DNA of 64,000 bases, from the NCBI GenBank assembly GCA_938036875.1, contig CALHVX010000067.1, positions 1 to 64,000 of the forward strand, given 5' to 3'. Under the pieces are notes generated by a model. That model was not told the DNA's origin, made no database searches, and saw only the letters and a program-made list of their open reading frames with translations. The stretch comes from an uncultured Pseudomonadales bacterium. Lineage in GTDB: Bacteria; Pseudomonadota; Gammaproteobacteria; Pseudomonadales; Azotimanducaceae. The first letter of the stretch is position 1; each line of letters starts with the position of its first letter. Shown here piece after piece: positions 1,767 to 28,846 of the stretch. The position numbers and the translations under genes are program-made.

Positions 1767-4556
1767 ATGACATCGACAATTAGCAGCTCAGACATCACCC
1801 CCATTGACCCCGACCAAGACCCTAAGCGCGATAAGGCTAAGCTAGAGTTGCCTGTGGTTGCCGAGACGAAAACGCCAGCCAGCCCAACCAAAAAAGACAC
1901 CCCAAAGCTCACGCCAATGATTCAGCAGTATCTAGCTATTAAAGCTAACCACCTGCAAGAATTAATGTTTTATCGCATGGGAGATTTTTACGAACTGTTC
2001 TTTGAAGATGCCGAGCGCGCAGCCGAACTACTGGATATCACCCTCACCGCTCGTGGTCAGGCGAACGGCAAACCCATTCCCATGTGTGGGATTCCGTACC
2101 ACGCTGCAGAAAACTATCTGAAGAAGCTGTTAGATGCCGGAGAATCCGTGGCCATCTGCGAGCAAGTGGGTGATCCGGCCACCAGCAAAGGTCCGGTTGA
2201 ACGCGCTGTGCAACGGGTTCTTAGTCCGGGCACCCTGACGGACGACGCTCTGCTGGAGCCGGGTCGCGAAAGTTTGCTGGCCGCCATCTGCCCACAACCC
2301 AAACAGCGCCGCCGCAAAGCCAGCGGCGACGCCAACACTTTGGGCACCGATCATGCAGATCACCAATACGGCTTGGCCTGGCTAAATCTAGCCCGCGGCG
2401 AGCTGCACGTGATGGCGCTGACCGATAGCGGCAGCCTGCTCAGCGAGCTTGCACGCTTGGCCCCCCAGGAAATTTTGGCCCCTGCCGGGGTTGAGCTACC
2501 TGAAGGCGTGCCCGAGAGCAGGGTGCGCGAGCAAGACCGGCTGAGTTTTGATCCTCAGCTTGCGCGCCAGGCCCTGTGTTCGCACTATCAAGTCCAAAAT
2601 CTGGAAGGTTATGGGGTAGATGAGAGTGCCCCCGTCATCGGCGCAGCCGGCGCGGTGTTGAGTTACGCCAAGCTCACCCAATGCCAAGAACTCAGTTTCA
2701 TCCGCTCACTAGAGCAGCGTCGCAATCACGAGCTGCTAGCTCTGGATGCCAACACCAGGCGTAACCTTGAAATCGATCAACGCAGTGACGGAAGCACCGA
2801 CCTCACACTCTTTGCGCTGCTTGATCGCACCCAAACGGCCATGGGTTCACGTCAGCTTCGACGCTGGCTCCATGCACCCCTAGCGCAACAGGACCAAGTG
2901 CAGAGTCGACAGCAAGCGGTCAGCATCCTGCTAGCGGGCCATTACGATAGCCAATTGGCCCCTACCTTAAAAAGTATCGGCGATATTGAGCGCGTGGTGA
3001 CCCGTTTGTCCTTGGGTAGCGCAAGCCCCCGAGATGTTGGTCGGATCGCCAATGCCCTGGCGCATTTCCCCACTATTGTTGCGGCGCTAACAAAGGTTGA
3101 GCAGCCCACCCTAAACAACATCAGCGGCCGGCTACCGGAATTTTCTGATTTACAGGCCAGGTTGCAGGCGGCGTTGGTGGAATCGCCACCTGCCTTGCTA
3201 CGCGATGGCGGCGTCATTCGCCCCGGGTTCTCGACCGAGCTTGATCGGTTGCGCAACCTCACAACTAACGCCAGCCAATGGCTCAGCGAGCTAGAGCAAC
3301 GGGAACGCGCACGCACCGGCATCAACACATTGAAGGTGGGCTACAACCGCGTGCACGGCTATTACATCGAAACTTCGCGTGCGGCTGGTAATGGTGAGGT
3401 TCCGGCCGAGTACGTACGCCGGCAGACGCTGAAAAATGCGGAACGCTATATCACGCCAGAACTCAAAGCCTTTGAAGACGAAGCGCTCAGCGCGCAAAGC
3501 GCTGCGCTCGCGTTAGAAAAGAAGCTCTTTGCCCAGCTGTTAGAAGATCTGCAACAACCGCTACCGCAGCTGCGCGCAGCAGCAGCCGCTTGCGCGGAGC
3601 TAGATGTCCTAGCCACGCTCAGCGAACGGGCGCGGAGCCTGAACTTTACTGCACCTACCTTTAGCCCAGAACCTGGCCTGCACATTGAGCAAGGTTGGCA
3701 CCCGGTGGTGCAGCAAGCCTCCGCAACCCCCTTTGTGCCCAACGACGTGCAACTTAACCTTGAGCGCAGCATGCTCATCATCACCGGCCCGAACATGGGT
3801 GGTAAGTCCACCTACATGCGCCAAACCGCTCTCATTGCATTGCTGGCTTATATCGGCTCTTACGTTCCCGCCGCCAGTGCCCGGCTAGGTCCGGTTGACC
3901 GAATCTTCACGCGTATCGGTGCAGCTGACGACCTCACCTCAGGCCAATCCACCTTTATGGTAGAAATGACCGAGACCGCCAACATCTTGCACAACGCAAC
4001 CGCTCACTCGCTGGTTCTGCTGGATGAAATTGGTCGCGGCACCAGCACCTTTGATGGCCTAGCCCTGGCTTGGTCCACGGCGCAGTACATCGCCCAAAAG
4101 ATTGGTGCACCCACCTTGTTTGCCACCCACTATTTTGAGCTGACCTCCATGCCCGACATAGCCCCCAACGTGGCGAACGTGCACTTAGCGGCAGCGGAAC
4201 ATCGCGGGGGCATCGTGTTCTTACACAGCGTCAGAGACGGCGCCGCTAGCCAGAGCTACGGTATCGAAGTTGCCAAGCTTGCCGGGGTGCCCAAACCTGT
4301 GCTGGCGCTGGCCCGAGAACGTCTACGGCAGCTTGAGCAGTCGGCCATTATCAGCGACGCCAGCCAACCCGACCTATTTGCCAATCCAGACTTCACCAGC
4401 CCAGCGTTTAACCCGGTTGAACCCGAGCCGATCCTGCCGGAGCCCAGCCCTACCCTAAAGGCGCTGGCCGCACTAGATCCGGACGCCTTGACCCCTCGAG
4501 AAGCCCTGCAGCACCTATATCACCTGCAGGACCTGCTGGATGAAGAGCCCAACTAG
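1767..4556 (+). CDS. mutS: DNA mismatch repair ATPase MutS
   Basis: MutS recognises base mismatches and starts methyl-directed repair with MutL. The mismatch-binding Phe-x-Glu motif is present (MGDFYELF, F74 and E76). The C-terminal ABC-type ATPase has Walker [10 protein letters not shown] (about 674-682) and Walker [11 protein letters not shown] (about 750-759). The C-terminus ends with the usual LTPREAL-type helix. At 929 aa it is longer than the roughly 855 aa norm. The excess is a 45-residue acidic and Lys-rich N-terminal lead before the conserved [11 protein letters not shown], plus a small basic insertion near residues 180-200. It is divergent from recA, as in Pseudomonas where mutS and fdxA also sit beside rpoS. 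Confidence 0.97.
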
Positions 4557-4784
4557 CGAGCGGGCCGGTTTTTGGTGCTAGTAGTGGGGATTTTGGTTCT
4601 ATGCTTAAGCCCCCCACCCAGCAGCCAATAAGGGCAACGGCGAGGGGGGAATTGAGCACTGGGTCAACATTGCCGGCGAGCACCTGGTTGTAACGGTTTG
4701 TATCTGTGGACTCGATAACTACACCAAACCGCATAAACAGGCTAGAATTGCGGATTGACGTACAAGAAACAATAAGGGCTCCAC

Positions 4785-5108
4785 ATGACGTTCGTCGTCG
4801 GCGAAAACTGCATTAAATGTAAACACACAGACTGCGTTGAGGTCTGCCCCGTAGATTGCTTCTACGAAGGCCCCAACATGTTAGTCATCCATCCAGACGA
4901 GTGCATCGACTGCGCATTGTGCGAGCCAGAGTGCCCGGTGGACGCTATCTTCTCTGAAGATGAGCTTCCTGATGGACAGCAGAATTACCTCGAGCTAAAC
5001 ACTGAGCTTGCGGAGCTGTGGCCTAACATTACCGAAAAGAAGGACCCATTGCCCGATGCTGAGGAATGGGACGGCAAGCCAAATAAAACGGACATGCTCG
5101 AACGCTAG
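4785..5108 (+). CDS. fdxA: 7Fe ferredoxin ([3Fe-4S][4Fe-4S])
   Basis: This is a small electron carrier of the Azotobacter ferredoxin I type. Nine cysteines lie in the first 50 residues (C9, C12, C17, C21, C25, C40, C43, C46, C50). By comparison with FdI, C9, C17 and C50 would hold the [3Fe-4S] cluster and C21, C40, C43 and C46 the [4Fe-4S] cluster. The length (107 aa) and the acidic tail are normal for FdxA. It follows mutS after a 228-bp gap that probably holds its own promoter. It converges on rpoS, the same mutS-fdxA-rpoS order as in Pseudomonas. Its physiological redox partner cannot be told from here. Confidence 0.95.
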
Positions 5109-6275: not shown

Positions 6276-7034
6276 CTATCGCAAGACTAGGCGCCGAGGA
6301 TCTAAGGGCTGCCCGTGCTTACGAACCTCGAAATGGAAACGAGAAAAATCCGTACTGCTCCCCGAGGTATCGGCCAGCGCGCTGCCAACTTTAACGATTT
6401 GTTTCTCTTGCACACGAGTTTGGCCATGAAATCCATAAGCGCTAAGCAACGCTTGGCCGTGGTCGACAATGATCAATCTGGCATAACCGCCCAGACCGGG
6501 CCCTGAGTACACAACGGTGCCGGCCGCCGCTGCGCGCACCGTTGTGCGGTTAGGCAACTCATAGTCCATACCGCGACTAATACCCGCAGTACCCGACTCA
6601 CCATATCCCAATATCGGCGTTAGCTTGACGGGCCATGACCAATGGGACGACTTTGTTTTGACGACGGCAGAACTAACCGAGCTATCAGGTTTCTTTGGGG
6701 TTGCCGGCTTGCTGTTGGTTCGGGGATGAATGGCAACCTTGGTTGGCGGTGGCCGGCGCAACCTGAGTTGTTGCCTAGGATAAATAGTGAAGGGTTGCGC
6801 AATTTTGTTGATGCCGGCTAGATCAACAACATCTAAACCGTAACGCCAAGCAATGGAATACAACGTGTCGCCAGGTCGAACTTGGTAAGTAGCCGGCATA
6901 GCGCCAAACACCGGCGAGTGATCAGCCACCACAGGCGTGCCACGGCTCGCGCAGCTCCCCAACAGCAGCGCCAAGCCGACAACGACCAACCACCCCAGCA
7001 ACGGGAGAGGGTTCAATTTAAGCACGTCAACCAT
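6276..7034 (-). CDS. nlpD: NlpD-like lipoprotein (LysM + degenerate LytM), amidase activator
   Basis: NlpD is an envelope lipoprotein that activates the AmiC amidase during septum splitting. The start was set at ATG 7034: it overlaps the stop of the upstream DUF368 gene by one base (TGATG) and gives a lipoprotein signal with lipobox LLGSC (C28). A longer frame upstream is only open sequence. A LysM peptidoglycan-binding domain lies at about 49-93 (YQVRPGDTLYSIAWRYGL), then a Pro/Lys/Ser linker, then an M23/LytM domain at about 140-250. The usual zinc ligands of active M23 enzymes are not complete (GMDYELP and YGFHG in place of the His-rich motifs), which fits an activator without hydrolase activity. 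It is followed by rpoS. Confidence 0.9.
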   Translation of the reverse strand: MVDVLKLNPLPLLGWLVVVGLALLLGSCASRGTPVVADHSPVFGAMPATYQVRPGDTLYSIAWRYGLDVVDLAGINKIAQPFTIYPRQQLRLRRPPPTKVAIHPRTNSKPATPKKPDSSVSSAVVKTKSSHWSWPVKLTPILGYGESGTAGISRGMDYELPNRTTVRAAAAGTVVYSGPGLGGYARLIIVDHGQALLSAYGFHGQTRVQEKQIVKVGSALADTSGSSTDFSRFHFEVRKHGQPLDPRRLVLR

Positions 7035-7888
7035 CAGGTTTTGATACGTGCTAAACCCCAAATAATCAAGACCCCGAGCACCATGCTCACCAAACTCGGG
7101 ATCAACCAAGCTGGCTCTCCCAGTTGCGCTGCGTAGGCCGAAGGCAACATTGGAGTACCCGCAACCGACCAGGGCCATAACTTGACCAAAGAGCCCAGCA
7201 TAAAACCCACCAACAAGCTGATGGCTGGGGGTCGATAGTTCGACATCAACCAATGCAAAAACCGCGAGAACAACAGCATGCCCACCGCACAGCCGCCGAC
7301 CAACGCCAGCAACACATCAAACTGTAACTGCGAGATGGCCAGCAACACGGTGTCGTAAAGCCCAAGAACCAACAGCAAGAAACTGCCAGACACCGCAGGC
7401 AACAGCCAAGCGGATACCGCCAAAGCGCCACCGCCAGCGATCAGCCACAGGCTGGGTTCAAGCGGTGTTGGCACTAAGTTGGCAACCAACAAGCCAAGTA
7501 CGGTACCCAGCAAACCAAAAGGCAGCAGCAACCGTAGCGGCAACGCACGGGCCATATCAATAATCGAAAAGACAATCAGGCCAAAGAACAGCGCCCAAAC
7601 CACAGGTGGGGCTGTATCCAACGCAAAGTGCATAAGCTTTGCGAACAAAAGCACACCGACCACCATGCCGCAGCCGAGCACGACCAAAAACTGCAGATTG
7701 TAGTCTTGCCACATGCGTGCAAAGCCTTGCTGCCGCCAAACCCTGAGCAACCCGAAATCTAAGCCCGCAAGCGTTCGTAGCAACTCATCGTAAATGCCGG
7801 TGACAAATGCGATGGTACCTCCAGAGACGCCCGGTACCACTTCCGCAATTCCCATGGCCAACCCGCGCAACATCAATCCAAACTTCAT
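7034..7888 (-). CDS. DUF368 (PopT-type) polyprenyl-phosphate transporter
   Basis: This integral membrane protein of 284 aa has many hydrophobic segments. The N-terminal signature GIAEVVPGVSGGTIAFVTGIY is typical of DUF368. Members of this family have been reported as transporters that return undecaprenyl phosphate to the inner leaflet (PopT), so it probably recycles the lipid carrier for wall and O-antigen synthesis. That role is inferred from the family. It sits between pcm and nlpD, its stop overlapping the nlpD start, which suggests co-translation with an envelope gene. uppS, which makes the same carrier lipid, is about 20 kb away in this window. Confidence 0.88.
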   Translation of the reverse strand: MKFGLMLRGLAMGIAEVVPGVSGGTIAFVTGIYDELLRTLAGLDFGLLRVWRQQGFARMWQDYNLQFLVVLGCGMVVGVLLFAKLMHFALDTAPPVVWALFFGLIVFSIIDMARALPLRLLLPFGLLGTVLGLLVANLVPTPLEPSLWLIAGGGALAVSAWLLPAVSGSFLLLVLGLYDTVLLAISQLQFDVLLALVGGCAVGMLLFSRFLHWLMSNYRPPAISLLVGFMLGSLVKLWPWSVAGTPMLPSAYAAQLGEPAWLIPSLVSMVLGVLIIWGLARIKT

Positions 7889-7918: not shown

Positions 7919-8584
7919 TTAGCTCCGACGCAATCCCTTGAGTAAAGGTACAAATCGTACATATTCAACCGTTTGCACCTCGAGGCCCTCAGCCGTTCGA
8001 TCAAACACCTTAAGCTCTTGCACGTTGCTCTCACCCACCGGTACCACCAAGCGTCCACCAACCGCCAACTGGTCAAGCAACGCTTGGGGCACCTCCCGTG
8101 GCGCTGCGGTTACTAGCACCGCATCAAAGGGTGCTTGCTCTGCCCAGCCTAAATATCCGTCACCGTAGTGCAAACGCACGTTGTTTAAACGCAGCGCTCG
8201 GAGGCGTTCAGCCGCACGTTGCTGCAAAGATTCTATACGTTCTACCGAGTAGACCCGCTCCACCAGACCAGCCAAGACCGCGGTTTGATAGCCCGACCCG
8301 GTACCCACCTCAAGTACCCGCTGACGCGGCACGTTGAGTAAGGTTTGAGTCATCAAGCCAACCACAAAGGGTTGGGACAAGGTTTGGCCCTCACCAATGG
8401 GCAACGCCGAGTCTTCGTAGGCGCGATGCGCCAGTGCTTCATCAACAAAAATATGCCGTGGCACCGAGCCAAGCGTAGCAAGCACATCCGTGTTCTCGAT
8501 GCCCTGCTTCGCCAACCGTTGCACCAACCGATCACGGGTACGCTGAGAGGTCATGCCAATGCCATTGAGGTCGTAGGTACTCAA
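7919..8584 (-). CDS. pcm: Protein-L-isoaspartate O-methyltransferase
   Basis: Pcm repairs aged proteins by methylating L-isoaspartyl residues with S-adenosylmethionine. The SAM-binding motif I is [13 protein letters not shown] (about 90-102), and the family segment [16 protein letters not shown] is intact. Two starts are possible. TTG 8584 overlaps the truD stop (TTGA) and has GGAG eight bases upstream. ATG 8554 gives [14 protein letters not shown], the start annotated in Pseudomonas homologues. I list the longer form because of the ribosome-binding site. In relatives surE lies between truD and pcm. Here it is absent and the two genes overlap. Confidence 0.95.
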
Positions 8585-9573
8585 CTGGCGAGCTCCAGGT
8601 TATCTGCGTCTAGGCTACCAAGCCGCGCTCTGCCGAGCTCTGCTAGCAGGCTGGTTGCATAACTACCGCTGGGAAGATCAAAGCACAGCGTTATCACATC
8701 TGCGTTTCTTAGCCAACGCAGACGCTGAGGCCGCAGGACCAACGCCCGACGCGCCTGCTTTACCCCGGCGTGCTCCAACCCCTGGCACAATGCCTGGTGT
8801 GCTTGCAACGCTGCGCTTTCGATTTGTGCTGCTAAACCCGCTGTGGTTGACCGACCACGCCCCCACAAGGGGGCGGTCGCATTGGCACCAACACACAGGT
8901 CGCCCTCAATTATCCGATTCCAGCAATCCTCACGGACCCGTGCGGCAAGCACCTCGTTGAATAAAAAAGAGCGGAGAACCGACAAGTGCAAACCTTTGGT
9001 GAAGGACTTAATTTGCCGCCCACGTCCGCGCGCGGTTTGGCGCTGCTCTAACCAACGCTCCGCACGCTCTAAGTTCTGGTGGTTGTGCCCAAAGCGCTGG
9101 CTACCAAAATAATTGGGCGCGCCTGTGTGCGCCAGCCGTGCCAAGGTTGTATCAGTAACACCGCTGGCATCATGGAGCACTATGCCAAAGCGATTACCCT
9201 GAAGCTCTCCACGTCGTAACTTGCGACCGTGCGCAGCGGTAGCTAACAACTTGAGGCTCGCATCCTGCTCAATCTCAGCCTGCACCGCTGCTCGCGCATC
9301 GCTAGGAATGCTCAACCACTGCTGGGTCAACGCAAAGCGGTCTTTCATGCCGGCATAACCAATGCTGGATTCTGGTTGCGCAGCCGCTTGGGCCAACTGA
9401 CGGACAACATCAATGGTTGTGCGATCCCGCTTCTGTAACCACAGGTAAACGTGGAGCGGGCGATGATCAAAGGATGAGCTTCGAAGCTCGGTGACCCGAA
9501 AGTCTTCGGGTTGCCGTTTAAAAGCAAACTCAACATCACTTTCAGTGCTGTTGGGCCACATAGAGGAACTCAA
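8581..9573 (-). CDS. truD: tRNA pseudouridine(13) synthase TruD
   Basis: TruD makes pseudouridine at position 13 of tRNA-Glu. The catalytic aspartate motif GYAGMKDR is present (D78, matching E. coli D80), as is the TruD signature [14 protein letters not shown]. Length 330 aa is normal. The listed start is TTG 9573. An ATG at 9561 (residue 5) is equally possible. It lies 38 bp after ftsB, whereas ispD and ispF normally stand between these genes. Its stop overlaps the pcm start. Confidence 0.95.
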
Positions 9574-9611
9574 CGCGTTAGTTTCAAGTGGCTGTACTCA
9601 ACTGACACAGC

Positions 9612-9938
9612 TCAAGGCCGTTGAGTTGGGCTAGCAACCGGTGCACCGGTCACAGGATCCAAACCCGGCATAGCGACCACGTAATACTCTTCCCCTTGCT
9701 TGATCATACCCAGGTCGGTGCGGGCGCTGGCTTCAATGGCAGCGGTGCCACTGCGCAACGCCAGCACTTGAGCAACCAATTGTTCATTGGCTGCGGCCAC
9801 GCGCTGCGCCCGAGCTGCTTGCTGTTGCACTTCGGCCTTGAGGTCCATCGCAGCAAAATGCCCAACGTCGCTAAACCAAACCTTGGCTTGCAACGCCAGC
9901 AACATGACCACAAGCAACGCGATGGTAAGCTTCATCAT
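9612..9938 (-). CDS. ftsB: Cell division protein FtsB
   Basis: FtsB is a small bitopic divisome protein that forms a coiled-coil complex with FtsL and FtsQ. One transmembrane helix lies at about residues 4-21 after a short cytoplasmic start. Then comes an Ala/Gln-rich heptad stretch (about 33-65) and the conserved end of the domain (AIEASARTDLGMIKQGEEYYVV). Length 108 aa fits. It follows eno with a 2-bp gap, the standard eno-ftsB pairing in gammaproteobacteria. Confidence 0.93.
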   Translation of the reverse strand: MMKLTIALLVVMLLALQAKVWFSDVGHFAAMDLKAEVQQQAARAQRVAAANEQLVAQVLALRSGTAAIEASARTDLGMIKQGEEYYVVAMPGLDPVTGAPVASPTQRP

Positions 9939-25769: not shown

Positions 25770-27101
25770 CTACAAAAGTCTCGCAATATCGTTGTAAATA
25801 GCCATAAACATCAGACCACCCACCAGCACTAGGCCTACCTGCAACCCCAGCGTTTGAACCCGCTCAGAGACGGGTCGCCCGGTCAGCAACTCGGCCACAC
25901 AAAACAGGATGTGGCCACCATCTAAAATCGGTATCGGCAGCAAATTTAAAACCCCTAAGGATACGCTAAGCAGCCCCAAGACACCGATAAAAGTTCGCCA
26001 ACCCACCTTGGCTGAATCCCCTGCAACCTGAGCAATGGTAATTGGTCCACTCAAGTTTTTTACCGACACTTGACCGACCACCATCTTACGCAGCAGGTTT
26101 AACGTCATGCCGGTCACTTCTTTCGTTTTGCTCAGTGCAGCAGGAAACGCCTGCACAAATGAATACTGCACTAAGGTTGGTGCCGGAGGCCCAATGCCTA
26201 AAAATCCTCGTTGTGCGTCGCCCTCACCCCGAGCATCTGGGGTCACCTTGATCTGACGCTGCTCAGCCTTACGCTCAACAAGCAGGCTCAACTCTTGGTT
26301 CGGGCTCTTCTCTATCAATCCAACCAGTTGCCGCCAGGAGGATATGGATTCACCACCCACCGCAACCACGCGATCATCCTTCAGCAAGCCACCGCGCTGC
26401 GCAGCCGAGTCGGCAACCACTTGCCCAACGATAGGCAAGGTCACGGGCGCCAACCCTAAAGACCCAAACAGATCTGGCTCAGCTGATCCTTGATGCCAAT
26501 TGCTCACCGGTAGTTGGTAGCGCATCACCCGATCTTGGTTAACGTTGGTCACACCCAGCTCGATGCTACCGGTATCACCCAGACGAGAGGCGAGCGCCAT
26601 GCCAATTTGCTGCCAGCTCTGTACGGGCTCACCGTCCACTTCAACCAGCTTTACATGCGCAGGCAAACCCACTTGCTCAGCCACACTTTCTGCCGCTGGC
26701 ACACCCAACATCGGCACAGCGGTTAAGGTACCGGCAACAAAAAGACACCAATACACCACTATCGCCAGCAGGAAATTCGCCACCGGCCCGCCCAGGGCAA
26801 TGGCAATACGCCACCAAGGGGTGAGCTGGTTGTAGGTGAGCTCTCCTGGCGCAAGCGTTTGCCCGGGCTGCAGGTCTTGCTCGTCGCACATACGCACGTA
26901 GCCGCCAAGCGGGATCGCGGCAATCGCAAATTCGGTACCCCGGCGGTCTGTTCGCGACCAGATGGGGGTGCCAAAACCTACAGCAAAACGCAGGACCTTA
27001 ACGCCAGACGCACGGGCAATCACAAAGTGGCCCAGTTCATGGATGGTCACCAGGACCCCAAGGGTCACAATCAACGCTAAGGCGTACTGCAGCAGTTCCA
27101 T
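25770..27101 (-). CDS. rseP: RseP site-2 zinc metalloprotease
   Basis: RseP cuts the RseA/MucA anti-sigma factor within the membrane and so releases sigma-E. It also clears leftover signal peptides. The zinc motif HELGH lies at residues 21-25 in the first transmembrane helix. Two PDZ domains occupy roughly 115-300. The third conserved site LLPIPILDGGH is in the C-terminal membrane region. Length 443 aa is usual. Its target rseA and the sigma factor rpoE are at 62.6-64 kb in this window. Next to it dxr is expected but absent. Confidence 0.97.
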   Translation of the reverse strand: MELLQYALALIVTLGVLVTIHELGHFVIARASGVKVLRFAVGFGTPIWSRTDRRGTEFAIAAIPLGGYVRMCDEQDLQPGQTLAPGELTYNQLTPWWRIAIALGGPVANFLLAIVVYWCLFVAGTLTAVPMLGVPAAESVAEQVGLPAHVKLVEVDGEPVQSWQQIGMALASRLGDTGSIELGVTNVNQDRVMRYQLPVSNWHQGSAEPDLFGSLGLAPVTLPIVGQVVADSAAQRGGLLKDDRVVAVGGESISSWRQLVGLIEKSPNQELSLLVERKAEQRQIKVTPDARGEGDAQRGFLGIGPPAPTLVQYSFVQAFPAALSKTKEVTGMTLNLLRKMVVGQVSVKNLSGPITIAQVAGDSAKVGWRTFIGVLGLLSVSLGVLNLLPIPILDGGHILFCVAELLTGRPVSERVQTLGLQVGLVLVGGLMFMAIYNDIARLL

Positions 27102-27136
27102 TCGGTCCTGTTATCTCGCTTGTTTTTTGGTCATTA

Positions 27137-27165
27137 AAACGGTCATGAAACGGTCATGAAACGGT
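27137..27165. repeat. 11-bp tandem repeat in the rseP-cdsA gap
   Basis: AAACGGTCATG is repeated exactly at 27137-27147 and 27148-27158, followed by a partial third copy AAACGGT (27159-27165). It lies in the 140-bp interval where relatives carry dxr. Confidence 0.8.
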
Positions 27166-27241
27166 GTTTTTGCGGCATTAGGTGACCCATTGTTGGGACA
27201 ATTCTACCGAATCCTGCCTGTTTAGAGTGTTGCAATTGGTT

Positions 27242-28090
27242 TCAGTTCACTACAACCGGTAAACCCAGCGCCAATAGGGCTAGAGCGTAAAATGGCAATA
27301 CCGCTATGATTGAGTCGATGCGGTCGAGGACCCCGCCGTGGCCGGGCAACAAGGTGCCCGAGTCTTTCATGCCCGCACTGCGTTTGAGCACACTCTCAAA
27401 CAGGTCGCCAAACACAGAAACGACAACCAAACCCAGCAGTACGGGTACCCAACGAAGGTCAAACCAGCCAACCACCAGCAAGCCTAAACAGACCGCTATA
27501 ACGCTAGCCAAACCACCACCCAAGGCACCTTCCCAGGTTTTGCCGGGGCTAACATGAGGCGCCAAGGCCTTGCTGCCAAAGGCTCTGCCGGAAAAATACG
27601 CGCCAGCATCCGCAAACCAAACGATGGCAAAGAGCATCAAGAGCAAATGGGACCCGTTTGCCATTGGACGAATGACCAGCAGTGCACACCAAGCGCAAGC
27701 TAGAATCAGCAAGCCAAACCCCAACCCCAACCAACCCTGCCACCAAGCGGACGGTTGCGCCGGCGGAGCCTCACTGGGCACATCTGGACGCCGGTAACGC
27801 AGGACCTGAAAAATCGCTAGTAACCACAGTGGTACACCCAGCCAAAGCATGGGCACCCACCAAGCAGGCTGGGTCCACAACAGGCCACACAGAAGCAGTA
27901 TCAACGCCATTGCAACCCACCGAGCGCTAGGTAAGTTCAACTCCAACAAGGCTAGTCGCGCCCACTCACCGGCACCAAGCGTGATCACCAGCGCAAAAGT
28001 CAGGGCAAAAGCCCATAGGGGCAAAAGGTAGATGGCGGCAATGAATAACGGGGCTAAGATCGCCGCCGTTAGCAGCCGTTGGCCTAGCAC
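27242..28090 (-). CDS. cdsA: Phosphatidate cytidylyltransferase
   Basis: CdsA makes CDP-diacylglycerol from phosphatidate and CTP, the branch point for bacterial phospholipids. It has about eight hydrophobic segments. The signature is in the C-terminal third: SPGKTWEGALGG and FGDLFESVLKRSAGMKDSG, followed by LPGHGGVLDRIDS. Length 282 aa. The start is GTG 28090. It lies 3 bp after uppS, as is standard. Confidence 0.96.
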   Translation of the reverse strand: MLGQRLLTAAILAPLFIAAIYLLPLWAFALTFALVITLGAGEWARLALLELNLPSARWVAMALILLLCGLLWTQPAWWVPMLWLGVPLWLLAIFQVLRYRRPDVPSEAPPAQPSAWWQGWLGLGFGLLILACAWCALLVIRPMANGSHLLLMLFAIVWFADAGAYFSGRAFGSKALAPHVSPGKTWEGALGGGLASVIAVCLGLLVVGWFDLRWVPVLLGLVVVSVFGDLFESVLKRSAGMKDSGTLLPGHGGVLDRIDSIIAVLPFYALALLALGLPVVVN

Positions 28091-28093
28091 TTG

Positions 28094-28846
28094 TTAGACG
28101 CGACGACCGAAGCGTCGTTGACGCTCCAGATAGGTGAGCAACGCTTCGTCTAACGATGCTTTATCGAAGTCGGGCCAAAACGCATCCGTAAAATAAAACT
28201 CGGTATAGGCAAAATCCCAAAGCAGGAAGTTGCTGATGCGGTGATCGCCTCCTGTGCGAATGCAAAGATCTGGTGGCGGCAACTCACCTAGGGATAAATA
28301 GCGGGCGAAGAGGTCTTCATCGATATCCGCCGCATCTAACTGACCCGCCGCTACATCTTCAGCCAAGCGCTTGGCGGCTTCGGTGATGTCCCAACGCCCA
28401 CCAAAATTGGCCGCGATATTTAAGGTCATACGCTCATTGTGTTTGGTGAGGTCTTCAGCTTGGGTCATTTGCAGCTGCAAATCCGGGGCAAATCGCTCCC
28501 GGTCACCGATGACACGCAAGCGCACACCGCGCTCGTTTAGCTGATTCAAATCGTTGCGTAAGACGTTACGCATCAAATCCATCAACAGCGACACCTCGCG
28601 CTTCGGACGCTTCCAGTTTTCCGTGCTAAAGGCAAACAGGGTCAGACATTGGACACCGTGGTCTGCACAAGCTTCTGCCAAGGGGCGAACGTTTTTTGCG
28701 CCAGCACGATGCCCTGCAGGGCCCGGAATGCTACGTGCTTTGGCCCAACGGTTGTTACCATCCATGATGATGGCAATGTGTTCTGGGACCACACTGGGGT
28801 CTATGGTCCCAGCCTCCTTGTCCCTATCGATGTGCGATTGAGCCAT
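28094..28846 (-). CDS. uppS: Undecaprenyl diphosphate synthase
   Basis: UppS extends farnesyl diphosphate with eight isopentenyl units to the C55 carrier used for peptidoglycan and O-antigen. The catalytic aspartate is D29 in IIMDGNNRWAK, followed by FAFSTENWKRP and the IPP-binding IRTGGDHRISNFLLW. Length 250 aa. Gaps to frr and cdsA are 6 and 3 bp. The enzyme needs IPP and FPP, so the cell must have an isoprenoid supply although dxr, ispD and ispF are missing from their usual places here. Confidence 0.97.
   Translation of the reverse strand: MAQSHIDRDKEAGTIDPSVVPEHIAIIMDGNNRWAKARSIPGPAGHRAGAKNVRPLAEACADHGVQCLTLFAFSTENWKRPKREVSLLMDLMRNVLRNDLNQLNERGVRLRVIGDRERFAPDLQLQMTQAEDLTKHNERMTLNIAANFGGRWDITEAAKRLAEDVAAGQLDAADIDEDLFARYLSLGELPPPDLCIRTGGDHRISNFLLWDFAYTEFYFTDAFWPDFDKASLDEALLTYLERQRRFGRRV

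Follow-up and report, generated by a model that had tools for sequence, protein, structure and literature searches.

Predicted replacement of the MEP pathway by a mevalonate pathway with a fused HMG-CoA reductase and mevalonate kinase in an uncultured Pseudomonadales bacterium

The organism that carries the analyzed stretch of DNA (the window, 64,000 nucleotides) appears to have replaced the MEP pathway with a mevalonate pathway in which HMG-CoA reductase (HMGR) and mevalonate kinase (MVK) are fused (HMGR::MVK), a reading to which we give a probability of about 0.93. Gammaproteobacteria usually make isoprenoid precursors by the MEP pathway, which fosmidomycin targets. In the proposed scheme, the MEP genes would have been lost and two slots in the window closed, leaving the neighboring genes undisturbed. 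A divergent HMG-CoA synthase of 494 amino acids would make HMG-CoA, the N-terminal class II HMG-CoA reductase of a 749-amino-acid fusion would yield mevalonate, and its C-terminal GHMP-kinase domain would phosphorylate the mevalonate. A phosphomevalonate kinase-like (PMK-like) enzyme and then diphosphomevalonate decarboxylase (MvaD) would lead to IPP, a type I isomerase (Idi-1) would form DMAPP, and UppS, encoded in the window, would use the product. We infer these activities from sequence comparison. An earlier note on this DNA had proposed MEP loss and mevalonate use. The draft genome of the organism (G000) bears this out, with no MEP gene found and with HMGR, MVK, PMK-like, MvaD, MvaS-like, and Idi-1 genes present; the fusion and the split of the family between two routes were unforeseen.

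Within the window, the genes frr, uppS, cdsA, rseP, and bamA, as named by NCBIfam, lie in this order on the minus strand across positions 29410-23288. The rseP gene (25770..27101, minus strand) matched TIGR00054 above the cut-off, and cdsA, for phosphatidate cytidylyltransferase (27242..28090, minus strand), was assigned from the gene order conserved in relatives and an NF008635 match of 156 bits, below the cut-off of 385. The ends of these two genes and the loci of relatives delimit a 140-bp spacer without strand (27102..27241) at the position where MEP-using relatives have dxr. One tandem repeat was found in this interval (27137..27165, no strand; period 11 bp, 2.6 copies, 100% matches), for which no role was seen, and the interval looks like an ordinary spacer. 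A Dxr query from the relative G025 found nothing at E ≤ 1e-4 in L082, the rseP locus of the window. The uppS gene, whose product consumes pathway-made IPP and FPP, is kept (28094..28846, minus strand; TIGR00055 above the cut-off). The absence of dxr from between rseP and cdsA, the 11-bp repeat, and the retention of uppS, all described in the earlier note, were confirmed.

The same note had reported ispD and ispF missing from their own slot, and this also held. The ftsB gene (9612..9938, minus strand; NF002058 73.5 bits, below the cut-off of 101) and truD (8581..9573, minus strand; TruD models at most 274 bits, below their cut-offs) are separated by a 38-bp spacer (9574..9611, no strand), which the flanking genes and comparison with E. 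coli K-12 place at the ispD and ispF position of that strain. Nearby, pcm (7919-8584) overlaps truD (8581-9573) by 4 bp, with surE/umpG missing between them; umpG is there in E. coli K-12. Between pcm and an NlpD-like gene there is a polyprenyl-phosphate transporter gene (7034-7888; NF052564 248 bits, below the cut-off of 400).

The locus was compared in sister genomes using a set of 38 genomes, consisting of G000, 24 others of its family (f1; one per genus, all of different genera), and 13 of the same order. All 20 full-length dxr loci of relatives (L001-L020) had dxr between cdsA and rseP; in G026, dxr was split across two contigs. Sixteen rseP loci from dxr-less genomes were compared, the set not including G012, which also has no dxr. 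In 15 of these, the cdsA and rseP matches were only 20-302 bp apart, which is too short for dxr, and the sixteenth (G017) is truncated by a contig end that lies 126 bp ahead of rseP. The slot is therefore closed wherever dxr is absent and the locus is visible, with the rest of the locus retained, and the 20/20 and 15/16 counts make the gap more than chance.

Three mevalonate genes form one operon on contig C83 of G000 (L063): mvaD (550-1533), a PMK-like gene (1530-2579), and HMGR::MVK (2536-4785). The reductase matched PF00368 and TIGR00532 above their cut-offs, and the kinase domain matched TIGR00549 above its cut-off at residues 448-724 of the fusion. MvaD scored 236 bits against TIGR01240 (cut-off 171) and far below the cut-off of the phosphomevalonate decarboxylase model NF040704. 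The best model for the PMK-like protein was TIGR01220, at 83.9 bits below its cut-off of 165.7, and its assignment as a phosphomevalonate kinase candidate follows from its operon position. The open reading frame upstream of mvaD (1-546) was considered as MvaS and rejected, being the end of an amidase gene. Members of this amidase family occurred in 12 of the 23 operon loci examined, and the family is not known to be linked to the pathway. The operon neighbors in G007, namely exonuclease III, sulfurtransferase-like, and histidinol-phosphatase genes, had no bearing on the pathway.

Within f1, HMGR (PF00368) was detected in 14 of 25 genomes including G000, none of which had dxr or ispH, and MvaD (TIGR01240) was above the cut-off in the same 14. 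The family is thus divided into 8 genomes with dxr and ispH, 14 with HMGR, none with both, and 3 with neither, and so offers a natural series for the exchange of an essential pathway. The order relatives G025, G027, and G036 had HMGR alongside MEP genes; the reductases of G027 and G036 were only 23-27% identical to that of the window organism, and for that of G025 there was no match at E 1e-5.

In G000, the reductase and mevalonate kinase are a single protein of 749 amino acids, one frame of which passed both cut-offs (TIGR00532, 408 bits; TIGR00549, 231 bits). All 13 f1 genomes with an uncut copy carried the fusion as one frame, and in the fourteenth (G017) it was split between two contigs. 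Residues E89/E90, K275, D291, and H393 of the reductase, and GLGGS 541-545, D588, and the glycine run 714-720 of the kinase, all of which we take to be catalytic positions, were invariant in 13/13 f1 sequences. Residues 9-436 matched the class II HMG-CoA reductases 9v7y, 6dio, and 1qax with at least 400 bits over nearly the whole chain, and these chains end where the MVK domain starts. Of the 28 PDB sequences that matched the protein, none spanned both domains, nor did any of its NCBIfam matches. MvaE of enterococci is a fusion of acetoacetyl-CoA thiolase and HMG-CoA reductase, and is likewise a class II reductase joined to a neighboring pathway step. However, the thiolase stands in front in MvaE, whereas here HMGR comes first and mevalonate kinase after. 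No thiolase model was among the family matches of the 749-amino-acid protein and its HMGR match begins at residue 10, so it is not of the MvaE type.

A genome collection was scanned with the alignment of the f1 fusions, and the best 80 loci were kept. MVK followed HMGR in frame in 37 of these, including L203 (open at a contig end) and L169 (the contig of G016), and 43 were unfused. The titles of the fused loci among the best 80 named Pseudomonadota, Calditrichota, Acidobacteriota, Planctomycetota, and Actinomycetota; most were metagenome bins, whose names are possibly wrong, and the Cryobacterium records L198, L199, and L202 were named strains. The fusion is probably bifunctional. Cleavage of the protein into two enzymes after translation, or activity of only one domain, would leave the fusion mechanistically meaningless. 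The variation of the linker in length and sequence among the 13 f1 sequences would suit this reading, but it is improbable, since the invariance of the presumed catalytic positions and the preservation of the frame in 48/48 fused rows over several phyla argue against it. A single chain that makes and phosphorylates mevalonate would, if true, be of interest to enzymologists and metabolic engineers.

A tree of 68 HMGR sequences (48 fused and 20 of the 43 unfused) was built by a quick method with a small, similarity-picked unfused sample. All unfused rows lay on one side of a branch (SH-aLRT 100), and the fused reductases formed one clade in this sample. The MVK tree (48 fused, 8 unfused) gave the same split with a support of 89, with a long-branch warning among the unfused sequences. 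The trees are consistent with a single fusion event followed by lateral spread, and the operon of the window organism was presumably acquired by lateral transfer. The HMGR of Ca. Azophilus lithoversatilis (L171; Ca. Azotimanducaceae, Pseudomonadales at NCBI) grouped among the f1 copies, which suggests that f1 is that family or one close to it.

For the preceding step, G000 has a gene for a 494-amino-acid MvaS-like protein on contig C151, immediately after idi. It passed PF01154 and PF08540, and scored 170 bits against TIGR01835, below the cut-off of 360. Its best PDB match was the HMG-CoA synthase 5hwp/5hwo (108.8 bits), presumably MvaS of Myxococcus. It is about 75-110 residues longer than the listed bacterial HMG-CoA synthase chains (383-420 residues). 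C132 aligned with the cysteine of HACYGG, and E91, C132, and H274 (numbering shifted by 4 to the first Met), which we assume to be the functional residues of HMG-CoA synthase, were invariant in 19/19 aligned MvaS-like proteins. The 18 aligned relatives were 46-62% identical to the G000 protein. Relatives at 46-53% identity were found near the fusion operon in 12 of the best 80 scanned loci, all of them fused, so that mvaD, the PMK-like gene, and the fusion form a cluster with an MvaS-like protein alongside. An idi-like open reading frame, recognized by eye, follows the fusion in L178, L195, and L204.

This MvaS-like protein was present in 6 of the 14 HMGR-bearing f1 genomes and in G010. The other eight (G006, G007, G012, G016, G017, G018, G020, and G023) had no MvaS-like protein and no PF08540 or TIGR00748 match above the cut-off, and five of them are rated 96-100% complete. 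This missing synthase is a directly testable gap. The archaeal-type HMG-CoA synthase (TIGR00748) was considered as the missing enzyme and rejected, with 0/38 genomes above the cut-off. A hidden Markov model of the 19 MvaS-like proteins found no match among the open reading frames of 14 loci taken from genomes lacking MvaS. In G020 (L258:664-1431) and G017 (L262:674-1459), a gene of the enoyl-CoA hydratase family stands next to idi, at the mvaS position of G000 and G010. These hydratases are candidate suppliers of HMG-CoA; their best model was EchA19 (110-120 bits, cut-off 400). An alpha/beta-hydrolase-like open reading frame, recognized by eye, adjoins idi in L249 (2095-3048), L257, L258, L260, and L262.

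For the last step, Idi-1 of G000 scored 163 bits against TIGR02150 (cut-off 105.8). Idi-1 was above the cut-off in 13 of the 14 HMGR-bearing f1 genomes; others with such a match were G010, G015, G009 (a MEP genome), and G031 (an order relative). The exception among the 14 was G006, a mevalonate user rated 100% complete that had neither Idi-1 nor Idi-2 above the cut-off and no MvaS. The type II isomerase was above the cut-off only in G024 and G034 among the 38 genomes, with weak matches in G000.

In the three f1 genomes with neither route (G003, G010, and G015), no dxr, ispH, HMGR, or MvaD was found. MvaS and Idi-1 were found in G010, which is rated 100% complete, and Idi-1 in G015. The operon amidase had no close copy in G003, G010, or G015, where the best matches (53, 42, and 51%, respectively) were at the level of second copies elsewhere. 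Short contigs or contig ends carry the operon in G000, G014, G016, and G017. The likeliest explanation is that the operon block lies on a contig absent from each of the three draft assemblies. These genomes, and the 8 of 14 HMGR-bearing genomes without a recognized HMG-CoA synthase, would also fit the import of isoprenoids or their precursors, with neither route complete and the mevalonate operon serving another purpose. For the window organism we consider this highly improbable, because candidates for all steps from HMG-CoA synthase through IPP and DMAPP are present in G000, and its genome of 4.7 Mb is not reduced.

Replacement of the MEP pathway by the mevalonate pathway further agrees with the MEP gene content of the assembly. 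The draft assembly of G000 comprises 190 contigs and has a completeness rating of 96%. None of the seven MEP genes sought (dxr, ispD, ispE, ispF, ispG, ispH, and dxs) was found in it, and the same queries succeeded in MEP-using relatives; the intact dxr, ispD, and ispF elsewhere in the genome that would have spoken against the earlier proposal were therefore not found. Among the 38 genomes, dxr (TIGR00243) was present in 21 and ispH (TIGR00216) in 21, 20 of these above the cut-off. Within f1, both occurred together in the same eight genomes (G001, G002, G008, G009, G013, G019, G021, and G024) and were jointly missing in 17 of 25. IspD, IspF, IspG, IspE, and Dxs were sought with a joined E. coli query, with matches listed to about E 4e-5. 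The MEP-using genomes gave strong matches among those listed. G000 gave six matches; the best 4 of the 6 covered only the C-terminal region of Dxs and were 23-27% identical to it, a pattern expected of paralogues such as pyruvate dehydrogenase or transketolase. Among the matches listed, G023 was the only dxr-less f1 genome with a real Dxs (51% identical to that of E. coli; contig C28, 59425-61239). The MEP genes of G025 are spread over five contigs (dxr, ispD, and ispF on C20; ispG on C5; ispE on C15; ispH on C18; dxs on C4), so a single gap could not delete them all and their absence from G000 would need several gaps. That the MEP genes are present in unassembled gaps of this incomplete draft, or relocated in the genome, is scarcely credible given this dispersal, the closure of both window slots without a contig break, the sensitive whole-assembly searches without an orthologue, and the joint absence of dxr and ispH in 17 of 25 f1 genomes.

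The number of exchanges was examined in a single-gene RseP tree of 37 genomes, with G012 left out and the tested group set by the trait. Fifteen of the 16 dxr-less genomes fell in a group of 17 with two MEP genomes (support 86/91), and G023, the mevalonate user with Dxs, lay inside a group of MEP genomes (98/95). A single clade of all 16 dxr-less genomes was rejected (p-AU 8e-5), indicating that the exchange probably occurred at least twice. In the HMGR tree, a common source of all f1 copies was not rejected (p-AU 0.48), and transfer within f1 or an early two-route stage is therefore possible. The HMGR of G023 grouped with Woeseiaceae loci (SH-aLRT 92). A foreign source of its operon was not upheld, since its placement with the other f1 copies was not rejected (p-AU 0.48). 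A broader and rather doubtful reading is that the fusion arose once, moves between phyla in a compact operon, and displaced the MEP pathway in f1 more than once; on the same reading, the 8 of 14 genomes without a synthase of known type might obtain their HMG-CoA elsewhere, for instance by leucine breakdown or through an unrecognized synthase.

Mevalonate use in gammaproteobacteria is already known. The earlier note had named Legionella and Coxiella as examples, in agreement with passages of PMC9997736 and PMC9803151. Coxiella burnetii and Legionella pneumophila likewise use mevalonate instead of the MEP pathway, according to those passages; unlike theirs, the locus of the window organism is not that of an intracellular pathogen. 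In the window organism, HMGR and MVK are fused. The HMGR::MVK fusion is apparently new, as no report of it was found in the open-licence literature searched, judged by titles and abstract starts with partial coverage. In the portion examined of a 2026 review of pathway diversity (PMC13001223), IspDF fusions are mentioned, and the terms fusion, fused, and bifunctional led to no mevalonate-enzyme fusion.

The MEP status of other fusion carriers was examined with a joined query over 34 genomes, 20 of which were reached through fused loci (20 of the 37), with at most nine candidates scored per genome and matches listed to about E 3e-35. IspG, IspH, Dxr, and Dxs were present in all four Cryobacterium genomes (L198, L199, L202, and L206) and in the Acidobacteriota bin of L194, indicating that the fusion and MEP genes can coexist outside f1. 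The other 15 of the 20 had no IspG, IspH, or Dxr among the matches listed, and one of them (the genome of L176) had Dxs. PdxJ uses DXP, the product of Dxs. A signature of DXP loss in cofactor synthesis was dropped because the picture was mixed. Among the matches listed, ThiG was found in none of 12 dxr-less f1 genomes and PdxJ in G014, G016, and G023, with G014 and G016 having no Dxs, and some fused-locus genomes, for example G047 and G049, had ThiG or PdxJ without Dxs.
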